64,000 bases of DNA from Terriglobales bacterium. GTDB lineage: Bacteria; Acidobacteriota; Terriglobia; Terriglobales; Acidobacteriaceae. The notes below the pieces were generated by a model. It was given only the letters and a program-made list of their open reading frames with translations. It ran no database searches and had not been told where the DNA came from. Shown here in pieces: positions 1,263-57,630 of this stretch. The position numbers and the translations under genes were made by a program. How positions within the stretch are numbered: the first letter of the stretch is position 1; each line of letters begins with the position of its first letter. The DNA is taken from the NCBI GenBank assembly GCA_025462725.1, contig JAOAPE010000010.1:1-64000 (forward strand), in the 5' to 3' direction.

Positions 1263-3551
1263 ATGGAGTCAAACAACATCGATTCGAAAACTCAACTGGT
1301 TCGCACCGGCGACACCCGCATGGACTTCGCCCGGCCGCTGCCCGGGCAGATGCAAGCTCCGTTCGTGCCTGCCACTACCGTTGGGGATTACTACCGCATC
1401 CTGCTAAAGCATAAAGCCGTTGTACTGGCATCCGTGCTGATTGTAGTCACGTTGGTCACTATCGCCACCTTCCGGATGACTCCGCTGTACGAAGCCTCCG
1501 CTCGCATCGCCATCAGCAAAGAAGATTCTGACGGACTTCGTCTCAACAGCGCTCAAGCTGCTGACGTCGATTACAGTTTCGACTACAACATCGAGCTCGA
1601 TACCCAGGCCAAGATCCTTCAAAGTGACACATTGGCCCTGCGCGTAGTGGAGGACCTGCACTTGATGCAGAACTCCACATTCGCAAATCAGAAATCTGTA
1701 AAAGGCGCGAAGCCCAATGATGCTGCTGCCTACGGCCGTGAATCCGCTGCACTTGGCGTCTGGCATGGTGGACTTGCGGTGAACAAAATCCCGCGCACGC
1801 GCATGATTGAGATTCGCTTCACCAGCCCCGATCCCAAGCTCGCGGCACAGATCGTGAACACCCTCGCAACGGCGTACATCGAGAACAATTACCGCGCGCG
1901 ATACGAATCCACGTTGCAGGCATCCGAATGGCTTTCGAAACAACTTACTGATCTGCAACTGAAGGTGGAAACTTCGCAAGCTGCGCTCGTGAAATACCAG
2001 CGCGAGAACGGCATCATTGGCATCGACGAAAAACAAAACACCATCACCAGCAAGCTTGACCAGCTGAACCGCGAGTTGACTAACGCTGAGGGCGACCGCC
2101 TTCAAAAGCAGGCCAACTATCAAATGATCAGCAGCGGAAATCTGGACGCCATTCCGGAGCTTTCCCAGAACCAACTTATCCAGAGTTTTCGGCAAGACGA
2201 GAACACGCTGAAGAAACAGCTCGCGCAGGCTACAACGCAGTTCGGTCCGTCGTATCCGAAGGTCATCGAGCTCAATAGCCAGATCACGCAAATTGAAGCC
2301 AGCATCAAGAATGAGATCGATCGCATCGCAGCTCGTAAGGCAAGCGAATATCAGGCTGCCATCAGCCGAGAGAAGATGTTGCGGGGCGCGTTCGAAGGGC
2401 AAAAGCAGGAAGCCAATCACCTCAACGAGAAAGCCATCGCCTACAACGCGTTGAAACATGACGCTGATTCCAACCGCCAACTCTATGACGGATTGCTCCA
2501 GAAACTGCGCGAAGCCGGCATCACATCAGGATTGAAATCCAGCAACGTTCGCATCGTTGACGTCGCTCGCGCTCCGCTTTCGCCATCGAAGCCGAACATC
2601 CCAAACAATATTGCTCTCGGATTCCTGCTCGGACTCGTCGGCGGCATCGCTTTGGCCTTCGTCCTTGAAAGCCTCGACAATACGGTTCGTACACCAGAAC
2701 AGGTAGAAACGCTGGTTGGATTACCCGCCCTTGGCATGATCCCGCTGAGTCTCGACATCAGCAGTACCCGCAACAAGACGAAGACGAAATCGATGTCGCT
2801 CACCACACAAGCTCAAACGGATCTACGAAAGACCAGCATCAGTCTGCTGGCGCACGCGCGGCCTAAATCCGAAGTCGCCGAATCCTATCGTGCTCTTCGC
2901 ACTTCGATTTTGTTGTCATCTATTGGCTCCGCTCCAAAAGTGATCATGGTGACTAGCGCTCTTCCGCAAGAGGGCAAGACAACCACCAGCATCAACACTG
3001 CGATCGTGCTTGCGCAAAAAGGTGGCAAGGTTCTCTTGGTAGACGGAGACATGCGTCGCCCCAGCATTCATCAAACGTTCAAGCTCCGCAATCGTTCCGG
3101 ACTCAGCACCATTCTGACCGGTAGCAATACTACGGAGCAGCTGATTGTAGCCTCTCCGATTTTGCCCAACCTGTTCGTGTTACCTGCAGGTCCTCCGCCG
3201 CCACATCCGGCTGAGCTGCTCGGATCGGACGTAATGCGCGGACTCCTCGCGAAGTGGCGTGAGCAATACGATCACGTGATCATTGATACTCCGCCCGTGC
3301 TCTCTGTCACTGACGCTGTCTTGCTATCTGTTCAGATGGACACAGTTTTGCTCGTCATTCGTTCGGCTTCTACATCCAAAGACGCGCTGCGTCGCAGCCG
3401 TGACGTGCTTGCTCAAGTCAATGCGCGTGTCATGGGCGTGATCGTCAATGCTATCGACTTGCACTCGCCTGACGCCTACTACTACTATTACGGCTCGAAC
3501 TACGCAGGCCGATACTACGACGAATCCGCCGGCCACTCTAACCCATCCTAA
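1263..3551 (+). CDS. Polysaccharide chain-length regulator / BY-kinase (Wzc-type tyrosine autokinase)
   Basis: A 762-aa inner-membrane protein. A Wzz-type domain starts near residue 38, with membrane segments at about 52-70 and 449-470 bracketing a long periplasmic coiled coil. The cytoplasmic kinase follows: Walker A ALPQEGKTTT (566-575), Walker A' LLVDGDMRRPS (about 590), Walker B VIIDTPP (about 673). The tail (739-752) carries eight tyrosines, including five in a row, which in this family are autophosphorylated. Such proteins control polymerisation and export of capsule or exopolysaccharide. The ATG has AGGAG seven bases upstream. The next gene begins 16 bases after the stop, so an operon with the TPR protein and the ligase is likely. 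Kinase and Wzz are fused in one chain, as in proteobacterial Wzc rather than the split Gram-positive pair. Confidence 0.93.
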   Translation: MESNNIDSKTQLVRTGDTRMDFARPLPGQMQAPFVPATTVGDYYRILLKHKAVVLASVLIVVTLVTIATFRMTPLYEASARIAISKEDSDGLRLNSAQAADVDYSFDYNIELDTQAKILQSDTLALRVVEDLHLMQNSTFANQKSVKGAKPNDAAAYGRESAALGVWHGGLAVNKIPRTRMIEIRFTSPDPKLAAQIVNTLATAYIENNYRARYESTLQASEWLSKQLTDLQLKVETSQAALVKYQRENGIIGIDEKQNTITSKLDQLNRELTNAEGDRLQKQANYQMISSGNLDAIPELSQNQLIQSFRQDENTLKKQLAQATTQFGPSYPKVIELNSQITQIEASIKNEIDRIAARKASEYQAAISREKMLRGAFEGQKQEANHLNEKAIAYNALKHDADSNRQLYDGLLQKLREAGITSGLKSSNVRIVDVARAPLSPSKPNIPNNIALGFLLGLVGGIALAFVLESLDNTVRTPEQVETLVGLPALGMIPLSLDISSTRNKTKTKSMSLTTQAQTDLRKTSISLLAHARPKSEVAESYRALRTSILLSSIGSAPKVIMVTSALPQEGKTTTSINTAIVLAQKGGKVLLVDGDMRRPSIHQTFKLRNRSGLSTILTGSNTTEQLIVASPILPNLFVLPAGPPPPHPAELLGSDVMRGLLAKWREQYDHVIIDTPPVLSVTDAVLLSVQMDTVLLVIRSASTSKDALRRSRDVLAQVNARVMGVIVNAIDLHSPDAYYYYYGSNYAGRYYDESAGHSNPS

Positions 3552-6160: not shown

Positions 6161-6749
6161 GATTCGCGCCGTCTATTTTGAGTTGTCATCCTGAGCGAAG
6201 CACTTTGCCTGCAATGTTGAGTTGATCACCCTGAGCGCCTTGCGTCCGAGGACGTCACTGCTAACGTACCAAATACTCCCAAATCATGAACACACTTGCA
6301 TAAACCGTGAGAGCCGCCGCACCTTGCTTCCAATATCTAGGGCTAACATACCAATGCAAGCGCATCAGCAATCCAGGAGGCGCCACGCTGGAATGTACCC
6401 TGAATCCTGGCTTCCACTCTTCTTCTTCTTCCCAACGTATAGCCGCGCTCGATTGATTCCTCATAGCACCTCGCACACGATCCCATATGAATCACATGCA
6501 CGATGCCTGCCATTTCACATTTCGATATCCGCGGATCAAGAACCGACGCTACTCTGCTGATTGCACTCGCCTTGCAAGCGAATCAGGTATTCCGCGTTGG
6601 GCACCGTCTCCCGCAACTCCGAACTGCAGATTCCCAAAACGGACTTTTCAAAATCCCAAAGCAGGAAATCCCAAAGCAGGAACTCTGGTGCCTAGTTTCC
6701 TATCCCTCTTTGATCTGCCGTTAAATTCCTGGATGTTATCTTGCAAACA
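6161..6749. other. Decayed spacer with repeat fragments
   Basis: About 590 bases follow the polymer ligase with no convincing gene. Two broken copies of repeat block A sit at 6182-6205 and 6222-6253. Two direct copies of AAATCCCAAAGCAGGAA lie near 6652-6685. The base composition is uneven and looks like old intergenic debris. Confidence 0.5.
6261..6464 (-). CDS. Doubtful 67-aa ORF with one hydrophobic segment
   Basis: This reading begins MRNQSSAAIRWEEEEEWKPG and has a hydrophobic stretch near its C-terminus (about residues 44-62). It is not recognised. There is no clear ribosome binding site, the region contains repeat debris, and it could be a chance frame or the tail of a decayed membrane gene. 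Confidence 0.18.
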   Translation of the reverse strand: MRNQSSAAIRWEEEEEWKPGFRVHSSVAPPGLLMRLHWYVSPRYWKQGAAALTVYASVFMIWEYLVR

Positions 6750-7691: not shown

Positions 7692-8942
7692 TTAGATTGA
7701 GCTCATGTTCGCCAGGAACTCGCCATTCGACCGGGTCTTCCCCAACTTGTCGATCAGCAACTCCATAGCTTCCACAGGAGAGAGAGGGTTCAGCACCTTG
7801 CGCAGCACCCAGATTCTCGCGAGATCTTCCTTGGGGATAAGTAGTTCTTCTTTTCGCGTTCCTGAGCGCTGAATGTCAATTGCCGGGAATACGCGCTTGT
7901 CCACCAGCTTGCGGTCAAGGATGATTTCCATGTTGCCGGTTCCCTTGAACTCTTCGAAGATCACATCGTCCATGCGCGATCCCGTTTCCACCAGCGCCGT
8001 AGCGATGATCGTCAACGAACCGCCTTCTTCGATGTTTCTTGCCGCGCCAAAGAACCGCTTCGGACGCTGCAAAGCATTCGAGTCCACGCCGCCCGAAAGC
8101 ACTTTGCCGGATGGCGGCACAATGGTGTTGTAAGCGCGCGCAAGACGCGTGATCGAATCCAGCAGGATGACCACATCGCGCTTGTGTTCCACCAAACGCT
8201 TCGCCTTCTCGATGACCATCTCCGCGACTTGTACGTGACGCGCCGCGGGCTCGTCGAACGTTGACGAAATCACTTCGCCCTTCACCGACCGTTGCATGTC
8301 CGTGACTTCTTCTGGACGCTCATCGATCAGCAGTACGATCAACACCACTTCCGGATGGTTCGTCGTGATGGAGTTCGCAATGTTCTGCAACAGCATTGTC
8401 TTACCGGTTCTCGGAGGCGCCACGATCAATCCACGCTGTCCTTTGCCCACCGGAGTGAGCAGGTCCATCACGCGAGCGCTGATGTTCTCTCTTACGGACT
8501 CTTGCTTGATCCGCTCTTGCGGATACAGCGGCGTCAAGTTGTCGAAAAGAATCTTGTTACGCGCTTCATCAGGAGACTCGAAGTTCACCGCTTCGATTTT
8601 CACTAGCGCGAAGTATTTTTCGCCTTCATGCGGCGGACGTACTTGTCCACTCACCGTGTCGCCGGTCTTCAAGTCGAACTTGCGGATCTGCGAGGGAGAA
8701 ACGTAGATATCGTCCGGTCCCGGCAAATAGTTGTAATCGGGCGAGCGCAGGAATCCATACCCATCAGGCAGGATCTCCAGCACGCCTTCAGCGAAGATGT
8801 GCCCTTCTTTTTCGCTCTGTGCTTGCAGGATTTTAAATATGAGGTCCTGCTTCCGGAGTCCGCTTGCGCCTGGCAGGTCGAGCGTGCGCGCGATCTTGGT
8901 AAGCTCCGTAATATTTTTTTCTTTTAGTTCCGCTATCGTCAA
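7692..8942 (-). CDS. rho: Transcription termination factor Rho
   Basis: A 416-aa hexameric RNA-dependent ATPase that ends transcription of untranslated RNA. The N-terminal Rho_N helices (1-45, [20 protein letters not shown]) lead into the RNA-binding cold-shock-like fold with [20 protein letters not shown] (61-80). Walker A is APPRTGKT (175-182) and Walker B is LLIDERPEE (about 204-212). [12 protein letters not shown] near 275-286 is the Q/R-loop region that contacts RNA in the central channel. Length is normal and there is no large insertion. The start is TTG at 8942 with AGGTGA upstream. The probable omega gene lies 105 bases upstream on the same strand, with a GC-rich hairpin between them. 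Confidence 0.98.
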
Positions 8943-9011
8943 TTTGTCACCTACGGGATTTTTGTTTTTTCTAAGGGAAGGATGCGCCGATTCAGCAATG
9001 AAAGGCGGGAT

Positions 9012-9037
9012 GTTCGCCGCGCGGGCGCGCGGCGAAC
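9012..9037 (-). promoter_or_regulatory. GC-rich hairpin between the omega-like gene and rho
   Basis: Inverted arms GTTCGCCGCGC and GCGCGGCGAAC pair over 11 bp with a four-base loop. There is no T tract on either side, so it is not a standard intrinsic terminator. It lies just downstream of the omega-like stop (9048) and 70 bases upstream of the rho start, where an attenuating or RNA-stabilising element would act. Confidence 0.55.
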
Positions 9038-9047
9038 TTGGTTTACA

Positions 9048-9266
9048 TTATGCAGCCTTACGTTGCGCTTCGGCAATAGGCTCGCCTACTGACATCACCT
9101 TTTCCGCGGCGCGCGCGTCTGCAAACTGTTTCAACACCTGGTTCATGGTGTCCTGCACCCGGGTCGCCGGGCGATGGAATTTACGCGTTGCCTTCGATAC
9201 CAATTGGCAAAGCATGTAGCGATTTTCAACCGGAGACAATGCTCCGTAAATAAGATTAGAACGCAT
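9048..9266 (-). CDS. rpoZ: Probable RNA polymerase omega (Rpb6-like) subunit
   Basis: A 72-aa protein. ENRYMLCQLVSKATRKFH matches the omega/Rpb6 core pattern (NRY-x-L---L-SK--RK) that wraps the beta' C-terminus, followed by TRVQDTMNQVLKQFADARA, a helix comparable to the second conserved omega helix. ATG 9266 is chosen because AAGGGCGG lies about eight bases upstream; a frame open to 9314 has no binding site. Being next to rho fits a transcription-machinery role. Omega proteins are short and divergent, so the call is likely but not certain. Confidence 0.6.
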   Translation of the reverse strand: MRSNLIYGALSPVENRYMLCQLVSKATRKFHRPATRVQDTMNQVLKQFADARAAEKVMSVGEPIAEAQRKAA

Positions 9267-9685
9267 GATATGTACCGCCCTTCGTTTAAGGAATACCGAC
9301 AACAGTCCGTTCATCGGTGTTGCAGTGGTTAGACTGTACTCGGGTGTAAAAGTAACGATTTTCCTGGGGCCTGTGATGACTTAGTACTTGATGCTCAGCC
9401 AGGCGCTTAGGTTGCAATTTCCTAGGGATGTATTCCTGGGGTAAGAAGCTGTAGCAGATTCAGTGCTTTAGGCTACCCGGTGGGAACGTACCAAACCAGA
9501 AGACGCAAAAACCATTTCCAGACCGACTAAGGTAATTCCAACCCTCCCCCAAGGTCAAGGAAAAACGTCCACCCACCCTCAAACTTTCGTTATAGATTCT
9601 AAGTTGCTGAATCCTTAGCACCTTAGATTTGGCAACTCCGCTCTGGATTCCGCCCTCCCATCTATGAACACGGTTGGAGGTGCTT
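9267..9685. other. Divergent spacer between the omega-like gene and the small membrane protein
   Basis: About 420 bases without a coding frame that looks real. It must contain the promoters for the minus-strand omega-rho pair and the plus-strand stress pair. I see no repeat block here, which is unusual for this window, and no clear RNA gene. Confidence 0.4.
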
Positions 9686-9835
9686 ATGTTGTGGACAATC
9701 TTTGTGATTCTTCTGGTCTTGTGGCTCTTAGGAGTCGTTAGCAGTTACACCCTGGGTGGATTCATCCACATCTTGCTGGTTCTCGCTGTGGTGGCGCTCG
9801 TTTTCCAGCTTATTACCGGTCGCAGAGCTGTCTGA
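9686..9835 (+). CDS. Small membrane protein, lmo0937/DUF5670-like (49 aa)
   Basis: The reading is MLWTIFVILLVLWLLGVVSS, then YTLGGFIHILLVLAVVALVF and QLITGRRAV: two membrane helices joined by a Gly-Gly turn. This matches the lmo0937 family of very short membrane proteins. GGAGG lies seven bases before the ATG. Thirty-two bases separate it from the CsbD gene, so they are probably co-transcribed. Such proteins often accompany stress genes; their molecular job is unknown. Confidence 0.75.
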   Translation: MLWTIFVILLVLWLLGVVSSYTLGGFIHILLVLAVVALVFQLITGRRAV

Positions 9836-9867
9836 CCCAAACCCAAGTTTTTATAAGGAGGAAAGCA

Positions 9868-10086
9868 ATGAATGACGATCGCGCAAAAGGCAAAGTGGAC
9901 GACATTAAAGGTCGCGTAAAGCGTCAAGTCGGTGAATGGACCGGCGACGAAGATCTTCAAGCCGAAGGCACCGCCGACCAAGCCAAGGGCAAAGTCCAAA
10001 ACGCATTTGGCAAAGTAAAGGACGCTGCCAAAGACGTGAAGGACGACATCACCGGCAACAAACGCCGGGACGACGAAGCTGCATAG
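9868..10086 (+). CDS. CsbD family stress protein
   Basis: A 72-aa hydrophilic, charged protein. MNDDRAKGKVDDIKGRVKRQ followed by TGDEDLQAEGTADQAKGKVQ is the CsbD pattern of amphipathic helical repeats. In other bacteria CsbD-like proteins accumulate under the general stress or osmotic response; a precise function is not established. AAGGAGGAAAGCA stands directly before the ATG, giving a very strong start. It ends in an intrinsic terminator that overlaps the end of the convergent hydantoinase gene. The DNA is rich in AAG codons in line with the lysine content. Confidence 0.9.
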   Translation: MNDDRAKGKVDDIKGRVKRQVGEWTGDEDLQAEGTADQAKGKVQNAFGKVKDAAKDVKDDITGNKRRDDEAA

Positions 10087-10106
10087 ACGGCTCCTCGAAA
10101 CCTGGA

Positions 10107-10130
10107 AAAGGCGACTACCCGGTCGCCTTT
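10107..10130 (+). terminator. Intrinsic terminator after csbD, overlapping the stop of hyuA
   Basis: A nine-bp stem (AAAGGCGAC / GTCGCCTTT) with a six-base loop, then a pyrimidine tract TTTTTCTTTTTCT. The minus-strand hydantoinase gene ends at 10115, within the left arm, so its last codons (Lys-rich tail) are encoded by this terminator. Confidence 0.85.
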
Positions 10131-12268
10131 TTCTTTTTCTTTTCCATTTGTTCCAAAATTAGATTCCCCGCCTTGTCTTCGGAATAACTCCACCCCGGCG
10201 GCACCACCGTTGTCCCGCTGTATTCAGTCACGATCGCTGCCCCGGCATACTTCTTTGTGAGGCTCAAGTCCCCGCGCTCCACCACCTGCGTCTTCCTCGC
10301 CTTCCCCGCAAACGTAACCTGTGCCAATTCCGCGACCGAGCCCAACGACCGCCGTCCGACTGCCGCCAGCTTAGGAGGATCCGTCTTGATCCACGCCCGC
10401 AATCGCACCGTCACAATCTCCACCGGACTACCTACCCTTTCATATCCGTATCGGCGTTTGTGCTCGCAATGAAATTCCGCCAACGCCCGCGCCCCATCTC
10501 GAATCGAAATCTCAAAACCCTGCCCCTTGTACCGCACTTCCAACCGCGATTCGAACTGCACTTCGCCTTTCCACCTCTCCGCTTCGAAATCCCGCAGCGC
10601 CCTCTGCTTCAACTCCCTGAACTCCGCCTCCAACTTCGCCAAAGGCATCGCCTTCTCTGCGGTCAACATCACCGTCCGCGAATAATCCTTAACGATGTCG
10701 CTCATCAGTATCCCCACCGCTGACAGCGCCCCCGGCATCGCCGGCACGATCACTCGGGGAATCTCCAGCGATTCTGCCAGCTCGCACCCATGCATCGCCC
10801 CAGCTCCGCCGAACGCCACTAGGCTGAAATCCCGCGTATCGAATCCTTTCTCGATCGACACCACACGAACCGCCTTCTCCATATTCGCGTTCACTACGCG
10901 AATGATCCCCTCAGCGAATTGCATGAGCGATAGTTTCGACCCGCTCTTCCGCAGCCACTCCCCCATCACCCTGCGCGTTCGCTCCACATCCAACTCAAAC
11001 TCGCCGCCCAGAAATCTCTTAGCTGGCAAGCGCCCCAGCAGCAGATTCGCATCGGTCACCGTCGGGGACGTCCCGCGTCCGTAACAGATCGGCCCCGGCT
11101 CTGCTCCCGCCGACTCCGGCCCCACATGCAGCGACCCTCCAGCATCAAACCGCGCGATCGACCCGCCACCCGCGCCCACCGTATGTATGTTGAGCATCGG
11201 CACACGTACCGGCAGCCCCGCTACTTCCGCCTCGTTCGTCGTCGTCGGCGTGCCTTCCACTAGGCAAACATCGGTCGAAGTCCCTCCCATATCGAACCCG
11301 ATAATCTTGTCGTACCCACTGCGCGCGGCCATCGCCGCCGCGCCCACCACACCACCCGCTGGTCCCGAAAGCACCGTCCGCACAGGCTCCCGCGTCGCAG
11401 TCTCCAGCGATGTCAGTCCTCCACTCGACTGCATCACAAACACTCGCGATCCACCCAAACGCCTGCTGACATTGTTCAAGTACTTCGCCATTACTGGCTG
11501 CAAGTACGCGTTCACCACCACTGTGCTCGCGCGCTCGTACTCGCGAAACTCCGGCAAAATCTCATGCGACACCGAGACCGGCACTCCTAACTTCTCCAAC
11601 TCCGCAGCAACTCGCGTCTCATTCTCCGGATTCGCAAACGAGAACAGTAGCGACACTGCGATCGCGTCCGGACGCGCCGTGGCAACCGCTTCCACCAATC
11701 GCGATATATCTTCGTCCGAAGGCGACCTCAGAACCTTCCCATCCTTATCAATTCGCTCCGACACTCCGAACCGCAACTCGCGCATCACCAGCGGCTCTAC
11801 GGCATCGAAAAAGAAGTCATACAGCTTCGGCCTCGCCTGCCTCCCGATCTCGATGGAATCCTCAAATCCGGCGGTCGTCACAAACGCCACACGCCCGCCC
11901 TTGCGCTGCAGCAAGGCATTAGTTCCCACCGTTGTTCCGTGCATCAGCAAAAGATTTCTGTCACGGGGTGTTTCTATTTGCCTCTGCTTTTGATTTTGCT
12001 TTTGCTTCTCGGTGGGAGAGCGGCGCTTTAGCGCCGCGTTGAGAGGTTCCAAAGATTGGGCTTCAGCCATGGGCTCTCCAACGATCTTCCCCACCGCCTC
12101 CGCGATCGCCACCGACGGATCTCCCAGTGTCGAGAACAGCTTCAACACGCATAGCCGATTTGACTCCGCATCGATCCACACGCAGTCCGTGAACGTCCCG
12201 CCCGTATCAATAGCAATGCGCAGCAGCGCACTCTCAATTTTTGTTTTGGATTTGGCTCGACTTCGCAA
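10115..12268 (-). CDS. Hydantoinase/5-oxoprolinase subunit A (HyuA-type), with an in-frame repeat insertion
   Basis: A 717-aa ATP-dependent amidohydrolase of the N-methylhydantoinase A / oxoprolinase family, which opens five-membered cyclic amides. Seen: RIAIDTGGTFTDCV (17-30), HGTTVGTNALL (110-120), GFDMGGTSTDVCL and AGGGSIARFD in the ASKHA-like ATPase core, and VTDANLLLGRLP. The usual partner HyuB is not adjacent; upstream is the prenyltransferase and downstream csbD. Residues 68-101 (KQ- and R-rich) come from repeat blocks E and F read in frame; family members normally lack this stretch. The start is a TTG at 12268 without a good binding site, so the true start may lie closer to residue 15. 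The last residues (KKKKKATG) lie in the csbD terminator. Confidence 0.85.
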   Translation of the reverse strand: MRSRAKSKTKIESALLRIAIDTGGTFTDCVWIDAESNRLCVLKLFSTLGDPSVAIAEAVGKIVGEPMAEAQSLEPLNAALKRRSPTEKQKQNQKQRQIETPRDRNLLLMHGTTVGTNALLQRKGGRVAFVTTAGFEDSIEIGRQARPKLYDFFFDAVEPLVMRELRFGVSERIDKDGKVLRSPSDEDISRLVEAVATARPDAIAVSLLFSFANPENETRVAAELEKLGVPVSVSHEILPEFREYERASTVVVNAYLQPVMAKYLNNVSRRLGGSRVFVMQSSGGLTSLETATREPVRTVLSGPAGGVVGAAAMAARSGYDKIIGFDMGGTSTDVCLVEGTPTTTNEAEVAGLPVRVPMLNIHTVGAGGGSIARFDAGGSLHVGPESAGAEPGPICYGRGTSPTVTDANLLLGRLPAKRFLGGEFELDVERTRRVMGEWLRKSGSKLSLMQFAEGIIRVVNANMEKAVRVVSIEKGFDTRDFSLVAFGGAGAMHGCELAESLEIPRVIVPAMPGALSAVGILMSDIVKDYSRTVMLTAEKAMPLAKLEAEFRELKQRALRDFEAERWKGEVQFESRLEVRYKGQGFEISIRDGARALAEFHCEHKRRYGYERVGSPVEIVTVRLRAWIKTDPPKLAAVGRRSLGSVAELAQVTFAGKARKTQVVERGDLSLTKKYAGAAIVTEYSGTTVVPPGWSYSEDKAGNLILEQMEKKKKKATG
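11966..12067. repeat. Blocks E and F inside the hydantoinase coding sequence
   Basis: The + strand shows an iterated TTTTGC-type tract (about 11983-12006), then the hairpin GCGGCGCTTTAGCGCCGC (12019-12036) and GATTGGGCTTCAGCC. The same hairpin grammar occurs at 16505-16522 in a spacer. Here it is translated as 34 extra residues without breaking the frame. Confidence 0.75.
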
Positions 12269-12337
12269 GCCGGAATTCTACATGAGCAGAAAAGATTACG
12301 AATGAACCAGGAAGTGAAGGTTTTTACAAAAAAGCTT

Positions 12338-12369
12338 TTCTCTGCGCCGCCGCGTCTCCGCGGTGAACA
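12338..12369 (+). repeat. Repeat block C
   Basis: CTCTGCGCCGCCGCGTCTCC and the following GCGGTGAAC form a C block that ends six bases from the stop of the prenyltransferase gene. Confidence 0.6.
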
Positions 12370-12374
12370 CGCTC

Positions 12375-13265
12375 TTAGACTTTCACCAACAAGTCCGCCG
12401 CGATAAACACAAAGAACACTACCGCGATCACGCCATTCATCGTAAAGAACGCTGCATTCAACTTGCTCAGATCATCCGCGCGCACCAATGAATGTTCATA
12501 CGCCAGCAGCATCGCCACAATCACTAGGCCAACGATTGCCAGTTTGCCCAACCCGAAAACCGCGACCAATCCGCACAACAGCAACAACCCGCACAGATGC
12601 AACGCACGCGATATCAACAATGCATTCCCGATCCCGTACGACTGCGGAACCGAGTGCAGCCCGTTGTCCTTGTCGAACTCGCAATCCTGGCACGCATACA
12701 ACACGTCGAACCCCGCCACCCAGCACGTCACCGCCGCCGTGAGCAGGAGTATGCGCGCATCCAGCGAGCCACGCACCGCAATCCACGCCGCTGCCGGAGC
12801 AATCCCTAGCGCGAATCCCAGCACCACATGTGACCACCGCGTGAACCGCTTTGTGTAGGAATAAAACAGGACCACCGCCAACGCCACTGGCGACAAATAA
12901 AGTGTCAGCCGATTCAACTCAGCCGCCGCAAACACGAACACCGCGCATGCAATGACAATGAACACCACCACGAACCCACGCGAGAGCAATCCCGCAGGCA
13001 ATGCTCGCATGCTCGTCCGCGGGTTCGCTCCATCAATTGCCGAATCCACTACCCGATTGAACGCCATCGCCGCTGATCGTGCCGACACCATGCACACCAC
13101 GATCCACAACACCTGCCATCGTGTCGGCCATCCATGCGCCGCCAACATCGCCCCCGACAACGCAAACGGCAGCGCGAACACCGAGTGCTCCCACTTGATC
13201 ATCTCCAGCGTCGTCTGAATATTTTTGATGAACGTCACGAATGTCATTGTAAATGGAAGCGACAT
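12375..13265 (-). CDS. UbiA-family prenyltransferase (MqnP/4-hydroxybenzoate polyprenyltransferase-like)
   Basis: A membrane enzyme of about 296 aa with eight or nine hydrophobic segments that should attach a polyprenyl chain to an aromatic quinone precursor. The first Asp-rich motif is NRVVDSAIDGANPRT, preceded by SARSAAMAF, and the second is YACQDCEFDKDNG. RSAAMAFNR with NPRT is typical of the branch linked to menaquinone by the futalosine route rather than classical UbiA. The frame opens at a GTG (13283) inside the ndk terminator; ATG 13265 or 13247 downstream of the hairpin is more credible, although neither has a clear binding site. No other quinone gene is in the window, so the exact substrate is inferred. 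Confidence 0.85.
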   Translation of the reverse strand: MSLPFTMTFVTFIKNIQTTLEMIKWEHSVFALPFALSGAMLAAHGWPTRWQVLWIVVCMVSARSAAMAFNRVVDSAIDGANPRTSMRALPAGLLSRGFVVVFIVIACAVFVFAAAELNRLTLYLSPVALAVVLFYSYTKRFTRWSHVVLGFALGIAPAAAWIAVRGSLDARILLLTAAVTCWVAGFDVLYACQDCEFDKDNGLHSVPQSYGIGNALLISRALHLCGLLLLCGLVAVFGLGKLAIVGLVIVAMLLAYEHSLVRADDLSKLNAAFFTMNGVIAVVFFVFIAADLLVKV

Positions 13266-13270
13266 GAAAA

Positions 13271-13292
13271 AAGGCGCAGTCACCTGCGCCTT
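13271..13292 (-). terminator. Intrinsic terminator of ndk
   Basis: A nine-bp stem (AAGGCGCAG / CTGCGCCTT) with loop TCAC, followed on the minus strand by six T. It lies 88 bases past the ndk stop and just before the prenyltransferase start. Confidence 0.85.
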
Positions 13293-16115: not shown

Positions 16116-16607
16116 CATCCCGAGCGAGCGCCCATCATCTCCGACCTCAGCGCAGTGGGTTTGTCGCGACGAGGGATCCATATCATTCTGCACTCCAATT
16201 GCAACCAGCACTCCACTTGACCTTGTCATCCTGAGCGGAGCGCAGCGCAGTCGAAGGATCCCTATCACTCTGCAACCTGCATGCAAGCACTGGTGTTAGG
16301 TTTTTTTGTGGCACAGCGCCCTCGGCTGTGCGAATTCAATAAACTGCAATCCGTATGTAAACAGCAATCCGTCTTGAATTGTCATCCAGAGCGCTTTTTT
16401 CTGGCGCGAAGGATGTTGCGCTTAGCACTCTGCAAGCTGTTCGCACATGCTACGAACGAGGCCATGATCTTTTCGACTTGCCGCGAAGCGGCACCGGTGG
16501 AAGAGCGGGGCTTTAGCCCCGCGTTGGGCTGTACTAGGGCTGGGCTTCAGCCCCGGCGGTTTTTAGGATTGAGATCCCCTGCGACCTCCGCGTCCTCTGC
16601 GGTGAAA
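16116..16607 (+). repeat. Composite repeat array (A'', A, B, F, C)
   Basis: In order: a divergent A-like copy (16116-16192), full A (16223-16275), a GTGGCACAGCGCC.. inverted motif (about 16308-16332), B (16379-16436), F with hairpin GCGGGGCTTTAGCCCCGC (16505-16522) and a second GGGCTTCAGCCCC motif to 16560, then C (16578-16607). This fills the sucC to MOSC spacer. Confidence 0.8.
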
Positions 16608-16634
16608 TCGCTTTTTGAATCTCCCAATGCTCTA

Positions 16635-17267
16635 ATGAATCCACTGCTTGTGCACATTGCCACCATCCAAGTCGGCCTCCCTCAGCGACGCGACCCCGAC
16701 GACGATCCCTGGTTCACCGGCATCTTCAAATCCAAGATTGACGGCCCCCTTCACATGAACAAACGCAATCTCGACGGCGACGCCCAAGCCGATCTCCGCG
16801 TTCACGGCGGCCCCAACAAAGCCGTAATGGCCTACTCCGCCGAACACTATCCCGCTTGGCGCTCTGAATTAGAAATCGCAGACTTCCCTTTCGGTGCCTT
16901 CGGAGAAAATCTCACCGTCATCGGCGCCAAAGAAGACGACATTTGTGTTGGCGACATTCACCAGATCGGCACCGCCACTCTGCAAGTTTCGCAACCTCGC
17001 TCGCCCTGCTGGAAACTCGCGCGCAAATGGGACATGCCCGACTTGCCCAAACGCCTAGTCATCTCAGGACGCTCCGGCTGGTACTACCGTGTGCTCAATG
17101 AAGGCACTGTGGATAGCGAACAAGACATCAAGCTGCTCGAGCGCCCGCTTCCTGATTGGACCATCCGCCGCATCTGCGACGTGACCTACGGGATCGAACG
17201 CCAACCCGGCGACCTCGCCGCTATGAATGCACTCGACCTTCTCGCCTCACAATGGAAACGACTCTAG
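16635..17267 (+). CDS. MOSC domain protein (YiiM-like)
   Basis: A 210-aa protein. VHGGPNKAVMAYSAEHY, then FGAFGENLTV and SQPRSPCWKLARKW, are MOSC-domain landmarks; the Cys in RSPCW is the conserved sulfur-carrying residue. MOSC proteins use pyridoxal- or molybdenum-cofactor-linked sulfur chemistry. YiiM-type members reduce N-hydroxylated compounds such as 6-hydroxylaminopurine. The reading frame is open far upstream (to 16281) but that part is translated repeat, so ATG 16635 is taken although its binding site is poor. The next gene begins 30 bases later on the same strand. Confidence 0.85.
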   Translation: MNPLLVHIATIQVGLPQRRDPDDDPWFTGIFKSKIDGPLHMNKRNLDGDAQADLRVHGGPNKAVMAYSAEHYPAWRSELEIADFPFGAFGENLTVIGAKEDDICVGDIHQIGTATLQVSQPRSPCWKLARKWDMPDLPKRLVISGRSGWYYRVLNEGTVDSEQDIKLLERPLPDWTIRRICDVTYGIERQPGDLAAMNALDLLASQWKRL

Positions 17268-18621: not shown

Positions 18622-19476
18622 TTAAGGTTTCGGATTGCTGCTGTTGTTCTTGCTCTTGCTGCTGTTGCTTCCAGCGTCGCACGTGTCAGAAACAGACTCG
18701 ATACGGCTCGCGCGGAATTCCTTTGCATTACTTCCAGCATTGGACTTCGATCCGCTCGTCGTTCCGCCCATCCCGCTTGAGCTGCTGCCCGTTCCTGCAC
18801 CTGCCGTGCTTCCGGCTCGGCCTGGCTGGTCAGATTGCGGCAATGTGCTGCTGGAGTTTCCAGAGCTGTTCATCGCCGTCTGGGTTCCAGACGCCTGTTC
18901 CCATGTGCCGTACAGTTTTACTTTGTGGCCCACGTTGCTCGAAAGATCGCTGCTGGCCGAGCCTTCCGGGATCACAGCAACTTCCTTGTTCTTGTGTCGG
19001 ACAACATATTGACCGCTGCTGCCTGCGCTTTCCAGGCATCCTTCAATCCGCTTCTCGCCCTTCGCACGCTTACCGTTCGACGCGCTCTGGGACTGGCTGC
19101 TTCCCATCGTGCTCGTGTCCTGTGTGCTGGAAGATGAGGTCGAACCCGTTCCCATCCCCGAAGACGAAGAACTGCTGCTCGGCGAGGTCGAACTAGTTCC
19201 GCTCTGTCCGCTCTGGCTCGAACTGCTGCTGGGCGACGTCGAGCTAGTTCCGCTCTGGCCGCTTTGGCTCGAGCTGCTGCTGCTCGGCGATGTCTGGTCG
19301 GTTGTTGAAGGAGTTGTCGTCCCGCTCTGCGAGCCTGTTTGGCCCGATGTGGAACTCGTACCTGTGCCTGACTGCGATGTGCTGCTGCTTGTGCTCGGAT
19401 TCGTCGATGATGTCTGCGACAGAGCAAAAACTGCGCACAGCAGCAGGAACATAGTTGTAAATAGGATTTTCTTCAT
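18622..19476 (-). CDS. Ser/Thr/Gln-rich secreted protein with a small beta domain (DUF5818-like)
   Basis: A 284-aa protein with a signal peptide (MKKILFTTMFLLLCAVFALS). Residues 21-135 are almost only S, T, G and Q, with repeated units such as SSQSGQSGTSSTSPS. A compact domain at about 141-195 starts EKRIEGCLESAGSSGQYVV and contains VGHKVKLYGTWE; a second low-complexity stretch follows, and the end RASRIESVSDTC closes the domain. The GCL...HVGH-type pattern resembles DUF5818, common in acidobacteria. AGGAGGAATGTGATTC precedes the ATG. The low-complexity parts probably extend the protein on the cell surface. Function unknown. Confidence 0.7.
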   Translation of the reverse strand: MKKILFTTMFLLLCAVFALSQTSSTNPSTSSSTSQSGTGTSSTSGQTGSQSGTTTPSTTDQTSPSSSSSSQSGQSGTSSTSPSSSSSQSGQSGTSSTSPSSSSSSSGMGTGSTSSSSTQDTSTMGSSQSQSASNGKRAKGEKRIEGCLESAGSSGQYVVRHKNKEVAVIPEGSASSDLSSNVGHKVKLYGTWEQASGTQTAMNSSGNSSSTLPQSDQPGRAGSTAGAGTGSSSSGMGGTTSGSKSNAGSNAKEFRASRIESVSDTCDAGSNSSKSKNNSSNPKP

Positions 19477-23691: not shown

Positions 23692-23813
23692 GTCAACGTA
23701 TCAGGAGCACGGCTTGAGCCGTGCCGCAACGACGCTTAAAATTAGAGCTTTAGCCCCAGAGGTCTGACCACGTTTTCCCTTTGCGTACCTTTGCGCCCTT
23801 GCGGTTCAAGATT
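23692..23813 (+). repeat. Repeat blocks F and C upstream of scpA
   Basis: F variant: ACGTATCAGGAGCACGGCTT with hairpin GCACGGCTTGAGCCGTGC, then GCTTTAGCCCC (to 23769). C block CTTTGCGTACCTTTGCGCCC and TTGCGGTTCAAG (23778-23811) follows. Confidence 0.75.
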
Positions 23814-24664: not shown

Positions 24665-24742
24665 CACGAAAACGTATCAGGGCACGGCCTTAGCCGTGCC
24701 GCAACAACACGAAAAAAGTTTGGGCTTTAGCCCCTGAGGTTC
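24665..24742 (+). repeat. Repeat block F between scpA and scpB
   Basis: ACGTATCAGGGCACGGCCTT with hairpin GGCACGGCCTTAGCCGTGCC, then GGGCTTTAGCCCCTGAGG. It is the sister copy, in the same orientation, of the block at 23692-23769 and so flanks scpA with direct repeats. Confidence 0.8.
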
Positions 24743-26408: not shown

Positions 26409-26636
26409 GCTGTCATCCAGAGCGCCTTCTTCCTGGCGCGAAGGATCTTGCGCTTGGCGCTCTGCAATCCGTCTACTTACCCCTGTCACCCTGAGCGCAG
26501 CGTGGAGCGCGCAGTCGAAGGGCCATGCCTTTGTTTTGCTTTTGCTTTTGCTTTTCAATGGTTCAATGAACCGATGGATAATGAATCAATCGCCCCAACC
26601 TGCTTTTCTCCGTGCACTCCGTGCTCTCTGTGGTTA
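26409..26636 (+). repeat. Composite repeat array (B, A, E, C)
   Basis: B (26411-26467) with GGCGCGAAGGATCTTGCGCT, a modified A (26482-26522), E (iterated TTTGCTTTTGC, about 26529-26557), then C ending GCTCTCTGTGGTTA. The C block runs into the stop of the next minus-strand gene. Confidence 0.78.
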
Positions 26637-36155: not shown

Positions 36156-36262
36156 TTTCACCGCAGAGGACGCGGAAGGTACAGGGGAACTACCTCAGGG
36201 GCTAAAGCCTGATTCTTTCCAAGCGTCTTGATGCAGGACTGAAGGCCTGCGCCACCCGAGTG
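36156..36262 (-). repeat. Repeat blocks C and F in reverse orientation
   Basis: Reading the minus strand: the F part CAGGCTTTAGCCCCTGAGG (about 36192-36213) with the upstream hairpin remnant GCAGGCCTTCAGTCCTGC, then a C block with CCGCGTCCTCTGCGGTGAAA. The C end touches the ferredoxin stop. Confidence 0.7.
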
Positions 36263-57309: not shown

Positions 57310-57630
57310 TGAACTTGTGATCCTGAGCGAAGCGCAGTCGAAGGACAACGCCTTTGCTCTTGCCTTTGCTTCTGCTCTTTCCTTTGCTTCTGCTCTTGCC
57401 TTTGCTTCTGCTCTTGCTTTTGTTTTTGACGTGCTAGAAACCAAAAACTAGAAACGAGAAACCGGTCTTTGTCATCCTGAGCGAAGCGCAGCGGAGTCGA
57501 AGGACCCCTATTACTCTGCAAACTTCCGGCACATGCTCAACAAACCCTGCGTTGCTTTTCTTTGTGAACCTTCGCGCCGTGTCTTTCTGGTTCAAGATGT
57601 TGCTCTTGCCTTGAAACTAGACACTCGAAA
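57310..57630 (+). repeat. Composite repeat array (A, E, D-like, A, C, D-like)
   Basis: A (57312-57350), E (57350-57428, the longest TTGC-rich tract, iterated CCTTTGCTTCTGCTCTTG), D-like (57431-57462), A (57472-57520), C (57562-57597) and D-like (57610-57630). The last block touches the stop of the next minus-strand gene. Confidence 0.8.

Follow-up and report, generated by a model that had tools for sequence, protein, structure and literature searches.

The hyuA-like gene of this Terriglobales genome raises the question of how repeat DNA came to be read in frame within a conserved enzyme, and why it was kept there. The gene lies on the minus strand at 10115–12268 of the window, by which we mean the whole stretch of 64,000 nucleotides analysed, and codes from a TTG start for a hydantoinase/oxoprolinase subunit A (HyuA) of 717 amino acids. 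The open reading frame (ORF) is intact, all 717 codons being free of stops with the insert included (ORF list), and the product matches both expected domains, Hydant_A_N (PF05378, E=1.8e-47) and Hydantoinase_A (PF01968, E=3.3e-100). Comparing the gene of the genome under study (G000) with those of two relatives, G001 and G003, we found 83–84% identity of amino acids and only 54–59% at third positions, which indicates purifying selection; outside the insert, hyuA is under normal protein constraint. The HyuA protein of G001 is 79% identical to that of G000. In the surrounding part of the window (7692–13283), a rho-like gene lies on one side of hyuA and a ubiA-like gene on the other (names given by eye); the rho-hyuA interval contains no ORF of at least 150 aa, and no HyuB was seen adjoining hyuA.

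Between the motifs DTGGTFTD and HGTTVGTN, the protein carries about 38 extra residues (approximately residues 66–103), which are encoded at 11960–12073 on the minus strand and delimited by the loop lengths of orthologues, an insertion map and a DNA alignment with congeners. Read on the minus strand from 12073 to 11960, this DNA is PMAEAQSLEPLNAALKRRSPTEKQKQNQKQRQIETPRD, in the same frame as the 717-aa ORF. One part is a degenerate tract of CTTTTG hexamers, called the E tract, at 11975–12010 (+), with the minus-strand reading EKQKQNQKQRQI. The other is a REP doublet at 12011–12073 (+), consisting of two hairpins and a variable spacer, with GGTGGGAGAGC at its 5' end; it was recognised by nhmmer with E=1.3e-10 (profile match at 12017–12071). 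Hairpin 1 (GCGGCGC-TTTA-GCGCCGC; 12020–12037, +) is evident from the sequence and a covarying stem, and hairpin 2 (GGGC-TTCA-GCCa; 12058–12069, +) from the doublet profile match and the comparison of copies. The initial annotation had described the E tract and hairpin 1, which it called F, as being translated in frame inside HyuA; the letters read as it described them, and both parts are dispersed repeats. Its F hairpin is a real repeat that forms only the first half of the doublet, the second hairpin having been overlooked. The in-frame addition was likewise recognised correctly, its size being about 38 rather than 34 residues, as the insertion map of 68 proteins assigns 38 additional residues to G000 HyuA at this position (loop 1). 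The end set for the insert at 12067 has to be moved, since it cuts hairpin 2; the element reaches to about 12073, still inside hyuA.

We built an AlphaFold2 model of HyuA on a 32-sequence alignment, which gave a mean pLDDT of 85.3 and values of 38–48 for the insert. The earlier suggestion of a disordered loop agrees with this model, in which no other internal stretch below 50 pLDDT is as long as residues 67–99, situated between helix 51–64 and strand 106–112. The loop is therefore probably disordered, and its predicted disorder together with its position suggests that it is exposed.

Both parts of the insert recur elsewhere in the genome. A profile search of the 864 kb of G000 that were sampled found 21 doublet copies at E<0.01, with the HyuA copy at the E-value given above, and by extrapolation there are about 100 doublets per genome. 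The copies share a layout in which GGTGGGAGAGC-GGCGCTTTAGCGCC-GCGTT is separated from the following GGGCTTYAGCCC by a variable spacer some 20 bases long; the stems and the flank of hairpin 1 are common to them, and the spacer is not conserved. The long stem 1 is 98% paired across copies, with compensatory changes at 4 pairs; 97.4% of cells are paired, with 15 double changes, and 0 of 500 shuffles reached as high a value in either paired cells or covariation score. The compensating variants include GCGGGGC/GCCCCGC, GCGGCGC/GCGCCGC, GCACGGC/GCCGTGC and GCACGAC/GTCGTGC, and stem 2 is short and near-invariant. Further copies in the window lie at 16502–16556 (+; E=9.8e-11), probably intergenic and upstream of a MOSC-like ORF, at 24679–24736 (+; E=5.9e-10), at 23705–23757 (+; E=7.9e-9) and at 36196–36250 (−; E=1.3e-9). 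Tracts of the E type were found 11 times in the 864 kb versus 0.5 expected from a third-order Markov simulation; those at 26527–26556 (+) and, as a long tract, at 57351–57428 (+) adjoin a GTCATCCTGAGCG repeat region and a GTCATCCTGAGCG repeat, respectively. No matching Rfam family was found in the window, and scans for perfect palindromes and simple hairpins did not resolve the doublet family. As separate observations, the GTCATCCTGAGCG..AGTCGAAGGACCCCTATC repeat (family D1) is present in ten copies at 6181–63147 of the window, and another family (D11) consists of two adjacent 51-bp direct repeats of 90% identity at 19169–19270.

Because the HyuA copy is the only clearly gene-internal one among the 22 sampled doublet matches of G000, entry into coding DNA is rare for this family in that genome, which counts against the explanation we prefer below. 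Other doublets lie under open frames upstream of the starts of MOSC and FtsA genes (names by eye). Such frames were seen to run through doublets into a MOSC-like gene (window 16281–17267, +) and an FtsA-like gene (locus L071, about 9589–9706); automatic annotation may consequently give these genes false N-terminal extensions.

In REPINs, two hairpins with a variable spacer form dispersed units, and the associated RAYT gene is flanked by copies. The G000 doublet resembles them in its two hairpins, its variable spacer and the copies flanking a RAYT gene, and differs in having two different stems, stem 1 being long and covarying and stem 2 short and near-invariant. We found six genes for Y1-type transposases in G000, three of which exceed the curated cut-off for REP-associated tyrosine transposases. 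One of these (locus L094) scores 112.8 bits with NF047646 against a cut-off of 80, and doublets abut both ends of the gene in inverted orientation, at 1354–1408 (+) and 1846–1901 (−) of that locus; of the five remaining Y1-transposase genes, three likewise have doublets nearby. The L094 RAYT is a likely source of doublet movement, as far as gene arrangement and sequence can suggest a movement. Against this stands the tag at the palindrome's foot. It is GTAG in the copies beside the RAYT gene and in some others, whereas the HyuA copy, like many more, has GTGG. Because the orthologues have diverged, the borders of the insert cannot be read, and neither a target-site duplication nor clean borders were evident in the congener DNA alignment.

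The loop lengths of orthologues demonstrate that the insert is an in-frame addition. Including both motifs, DTGGTFTD to HGTTVGTN spans 97 residues in G000, whereas loop 1 has at most 64 residues in 87 of 95 distinct orthologue loops, and the distance between the motifs is mostly 56–61 in about 30 orthologues; solved homologues are shorter here as well, N-methylhydantoinase having 12 residues where the query has 45. In the comparison with related acidobacteria that the initial annotation had proposed, the insert is absent in the congeners G001, G002 and G004 and in nearly all other orthologues, and one congener (G003) has it; distant orthologues carrying the same residues in a genome without the repeat were looked for and not found. 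The gene tree joins G003 to G001 with a bootstrap value of 96% and places G000 outside this pair. The G000 and G003 inserts share the junction of tract and doublet as well as an identical 31-nt stretch over the stem, TCGGTGGGAGAGCGGCGCTTTAGCGCCGCGT, while the two genes are 78% identical in DNA, 59% at third positions and 41% in the doublet spacer. As the junction shared by G000 and G003 had no further occurrence in the sequence that was fetched, one ancestral insertion followed by loss in G001 seems somewhat likelier. Independent insertions in G000 and G003, considered because G001 and G003 are sisters and only G003 of these carries the insert, appear less likely on the same alignments. Against a single insertion stand the 31 identical bases, compared with third positions of 59% and a spacer of 41%; the stem may have been either held at the nucleic-acid level, refreshed from other copies or inserted twice.

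We regard it as highly probable that a REP doublet of the RAYT type was inserted into hyuA together with the hexamer tract next to it and was kept through its frame and the tolerance of the loop. The element would have entered the gene in a Terriglobales lineage (Candidatus Angelobacter group), moved by the RAYT as far as the doublet is concerned, at a point that follows the first ATPase helix, precedes the HGTTVGTN strand and is predicted to be a disordered loop. It would have been retained with the frame kept and no stop in the frame used, the extra residues being made, exposed and harmless there, so that retention may have been neutral. The claim that the repeat can enter coding DNA and be tolerated at a loop holds up on two counts, the absence of the insert from most orthologues and the predicted disorder of the loop. 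The initial annotation missed the RAYT and the other repeats that fill the same loop in relatives.

The history of HyuA in other species extends the case. Insertions of at least 8 residues occur almost only in three loops and at the C-terminus (insertion map). Loop 1 of G135 contains GCAGATTCCTCGCTCCGCTCGGAACGACAAG in frame, with about 20 further matches in the same genome, and that of G082, which belongs to the same genus, contains a hairpin, CCCACCCT..TCTCGCC, for which the genome has no fewer than 12 further matches. At least three unrelated dispersed repeats have thus entered HyuA loop 1. The loop 1 inserts of G241 and G014 were rejected as dispersed repeats, having no other match in their own genomes, as was that of G304 with one weak partial match only. 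In G298 (locus L231), loop 1 has grown at the same place by a short tandem duplication (LELRHGATLERRHGAT) of other origin. Loop 2, which precedes RIFVMQSSGG, carries the same doublet family as in G000 in frame in about 13 species, mostly read as VEERRFSAAK...GALAP, and tandem in-frame doublet units are present at loci L183, L184, L186 and L188. Three or more tandem REP-derived VEERRFSAAK-like units were observed within one loop 2. At locus L108, the loop 2 doublet is reversed in orientation and read in another frame; further species have a GAGACGTTGC palindrome or a CGAGACGTGGGGCACC hairpin in this loop, and G035 (locus L036) has the GTCATCCTGAGCG repeat in frame, which is intergenic in the G000 window. 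All these in-frame inserts come from a search that required open frames. Among 16 distinct copies of the loop 2 stem, 10 are fully paired, and paired stem changes swap two residues together, from RRFS to RPFR. Because varied repeats occupy two HyuA loops in different reading frames, it would be the place, through its tolerance, that matters and not the encoded peptide.

Another palindrome has entered several conserved genes of the genus containing G135 and G082 (genus g71). A pattern search of both genomes found a hairpin repeat, CCCCACCCTGTCTCGCC-N7-GGCGAGACAAGGGTGGGG, which is open in all six frames and which, besides HyuA, lies in frame in genes identified by family models: in G135, those for ValS (two sites), a RluB-type synthase and PrmC; in G082, those for PrmC, RecG, MutY, an ATP-dependent ligase and an FeS oxidase (loci L269, L271, L274, L276, L279, L280, L292, L293 and L294). 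Sister species have empty sites, namely G082 and G161 for ValS, G161 for PrmC, and G135 and G161 for MutY. The g71 palindrome has thus hit several unrelated conserved genes, whereas this was not seen for the doublet in the sampled part of G000. Because the g71 palindrome is read within genes in four or more of its six possible frames, its peptide is not what is conserved. A second repeat (FDKVRAGSAAPLRLRSGQ; PRLRSGQ) is apparently nested in the first in RecG of G135 (L311) and RluB of G082 (L317). In both genomes (L275 in G135, L288 in G082), a TetR-type regulator has the g71 hairpin directly behind its TetR_C_24 domain, where it apparently forms a C-terminal tail.

The preferred reading, insertion with tolerance, may be carried further: the HyuA loops of Terriglobales could be standing acceptor sites at which the genome's whole set of palindromes is turned into protein again and again, with the stem afterwards held at the nucleic-acid level by conversion or by selection acting on the hairpin, and with residue changes dictated by the pairing rather than by what the protein needs, a proposal to which we assign a rather low probability. 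Somewhat less probable still is exaptation, in which either the encoded basic loop or the hairpin (at the mRNA or the DNA level) would be in use (for mRNA stability, translation pausing or binding) and the insert selected. The identity of the 31-nt stretch in G000 and G003 despite the divergence around it would fit such a use, as would the loop 2 copies, which are often perfect palindromes while two residues change together (RRFS vs. RPFR). The sister species G001, however, does without the insert, the same site harbours unrelated repeats and is read in different frames, and the stem identity could come from separate insertions or gene conversion from genomic copies; the hairpin or the peptide may have a role, but the insert can be explained without one. 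Far less probable is that the element is transcribed and then skipped in translation or removed, in the manner of the byp elements known from yeast mitochondria, in which case no extra residues would be made. The stable hairpin within a coding sequence and the bypassing of palindromic elements in Magnusiomyces mitochondria (PMC6649704) speak for such a mechanism. Bypassed elements need no frame, however, and several of the six frames of a doublet contain stops, whereas the HyuA inserts are multiples of three without stops (in a search that asked for open frames); bypassing is unlikely because frame and openness are kept. There is hardly any probability left for the reverse direction, in which the loop would be ancient in HyuA and would have given rise to the intergenic repeats, or for coincidence: it is a logical possibility, and loop expansions that do not consist of dispersed repeats do exist (the tandem duplication in G298, the unique inserts of G014 and G241), but chance is rejected by the profile match of E=1.3e-10, most orthologues lack the insert and the family has its own RAYT. 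A pseudogene or assembly artefact is just as improbable, although the compared genomes are largely metagenome assemblies and hyuA starts with TTG, given that the 717-aa ORF is intact with both domains and under constraint, third positions diverging far more than residues, and that a related insert is present in a separate assembly (G003, RYN_13).

Repeats within coding sequences are known from other systems. GTAG/CGTC REPs occur as singles and dimers inside ORFs, where they add 20–30 residues (clusters 43–82), in genes for DNA repair, a tRNA synthetase, a pseudouridine synthase and a ligase (Di Nocera et al. 2013, PMC3733652). The same text reports two REP inserts in one gene, a site in recB that is hit at roughly the same point by different REPs in two Xanthomonas species, and RAYT genes flanked by REPs, the arrangement found at L094, and mentions the acidobacterium Koribacter versatilis for transposases with terminal inverted repeats (PMC3733652). 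The present case differs in its Terriglobales host and hydantoinase-like target, and in having several unrelated families in the same loops, many species and tandem in-frame copies. Rickettsia palindromic elements lie in frame in conserved proteins and are apparently tolerated (Ogata et al. 2000, 2002, cited in PMC6649704); our case concerns another phylum and lifestyle and a family linked to a RAYT. The inverted repeats of nematomorph mitochondria resemble ours in lying inside coding sequence; they differ from the dispersed, mobile-type family described here in being long, perfect repeats that do not belong to any such family (PMC6649704). In the open-access papers searched, we found no account of intragenic palindromes in Acidobacteriota, which may exist elsewhere. 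Intragenic REPs and Rickettsia palindromic elements are already known; two aspects look new, namely the phylum and the fact that unrelated repeat families have filled the same loops time and again.

The conversion of selfish palindromes into protein thus extends beyond Rickettsia and beyond the REP-rich species listed so far. Open frames through repeats upstream of genes carry a warning for annotation. HyuA offers one enzyme that can be traced across many species through empty sites, unrelated donors, tandem growth, nesting and decay, which lets one test the origin of new protein segments from repeat DNA, that is, mere tolerance versus use.
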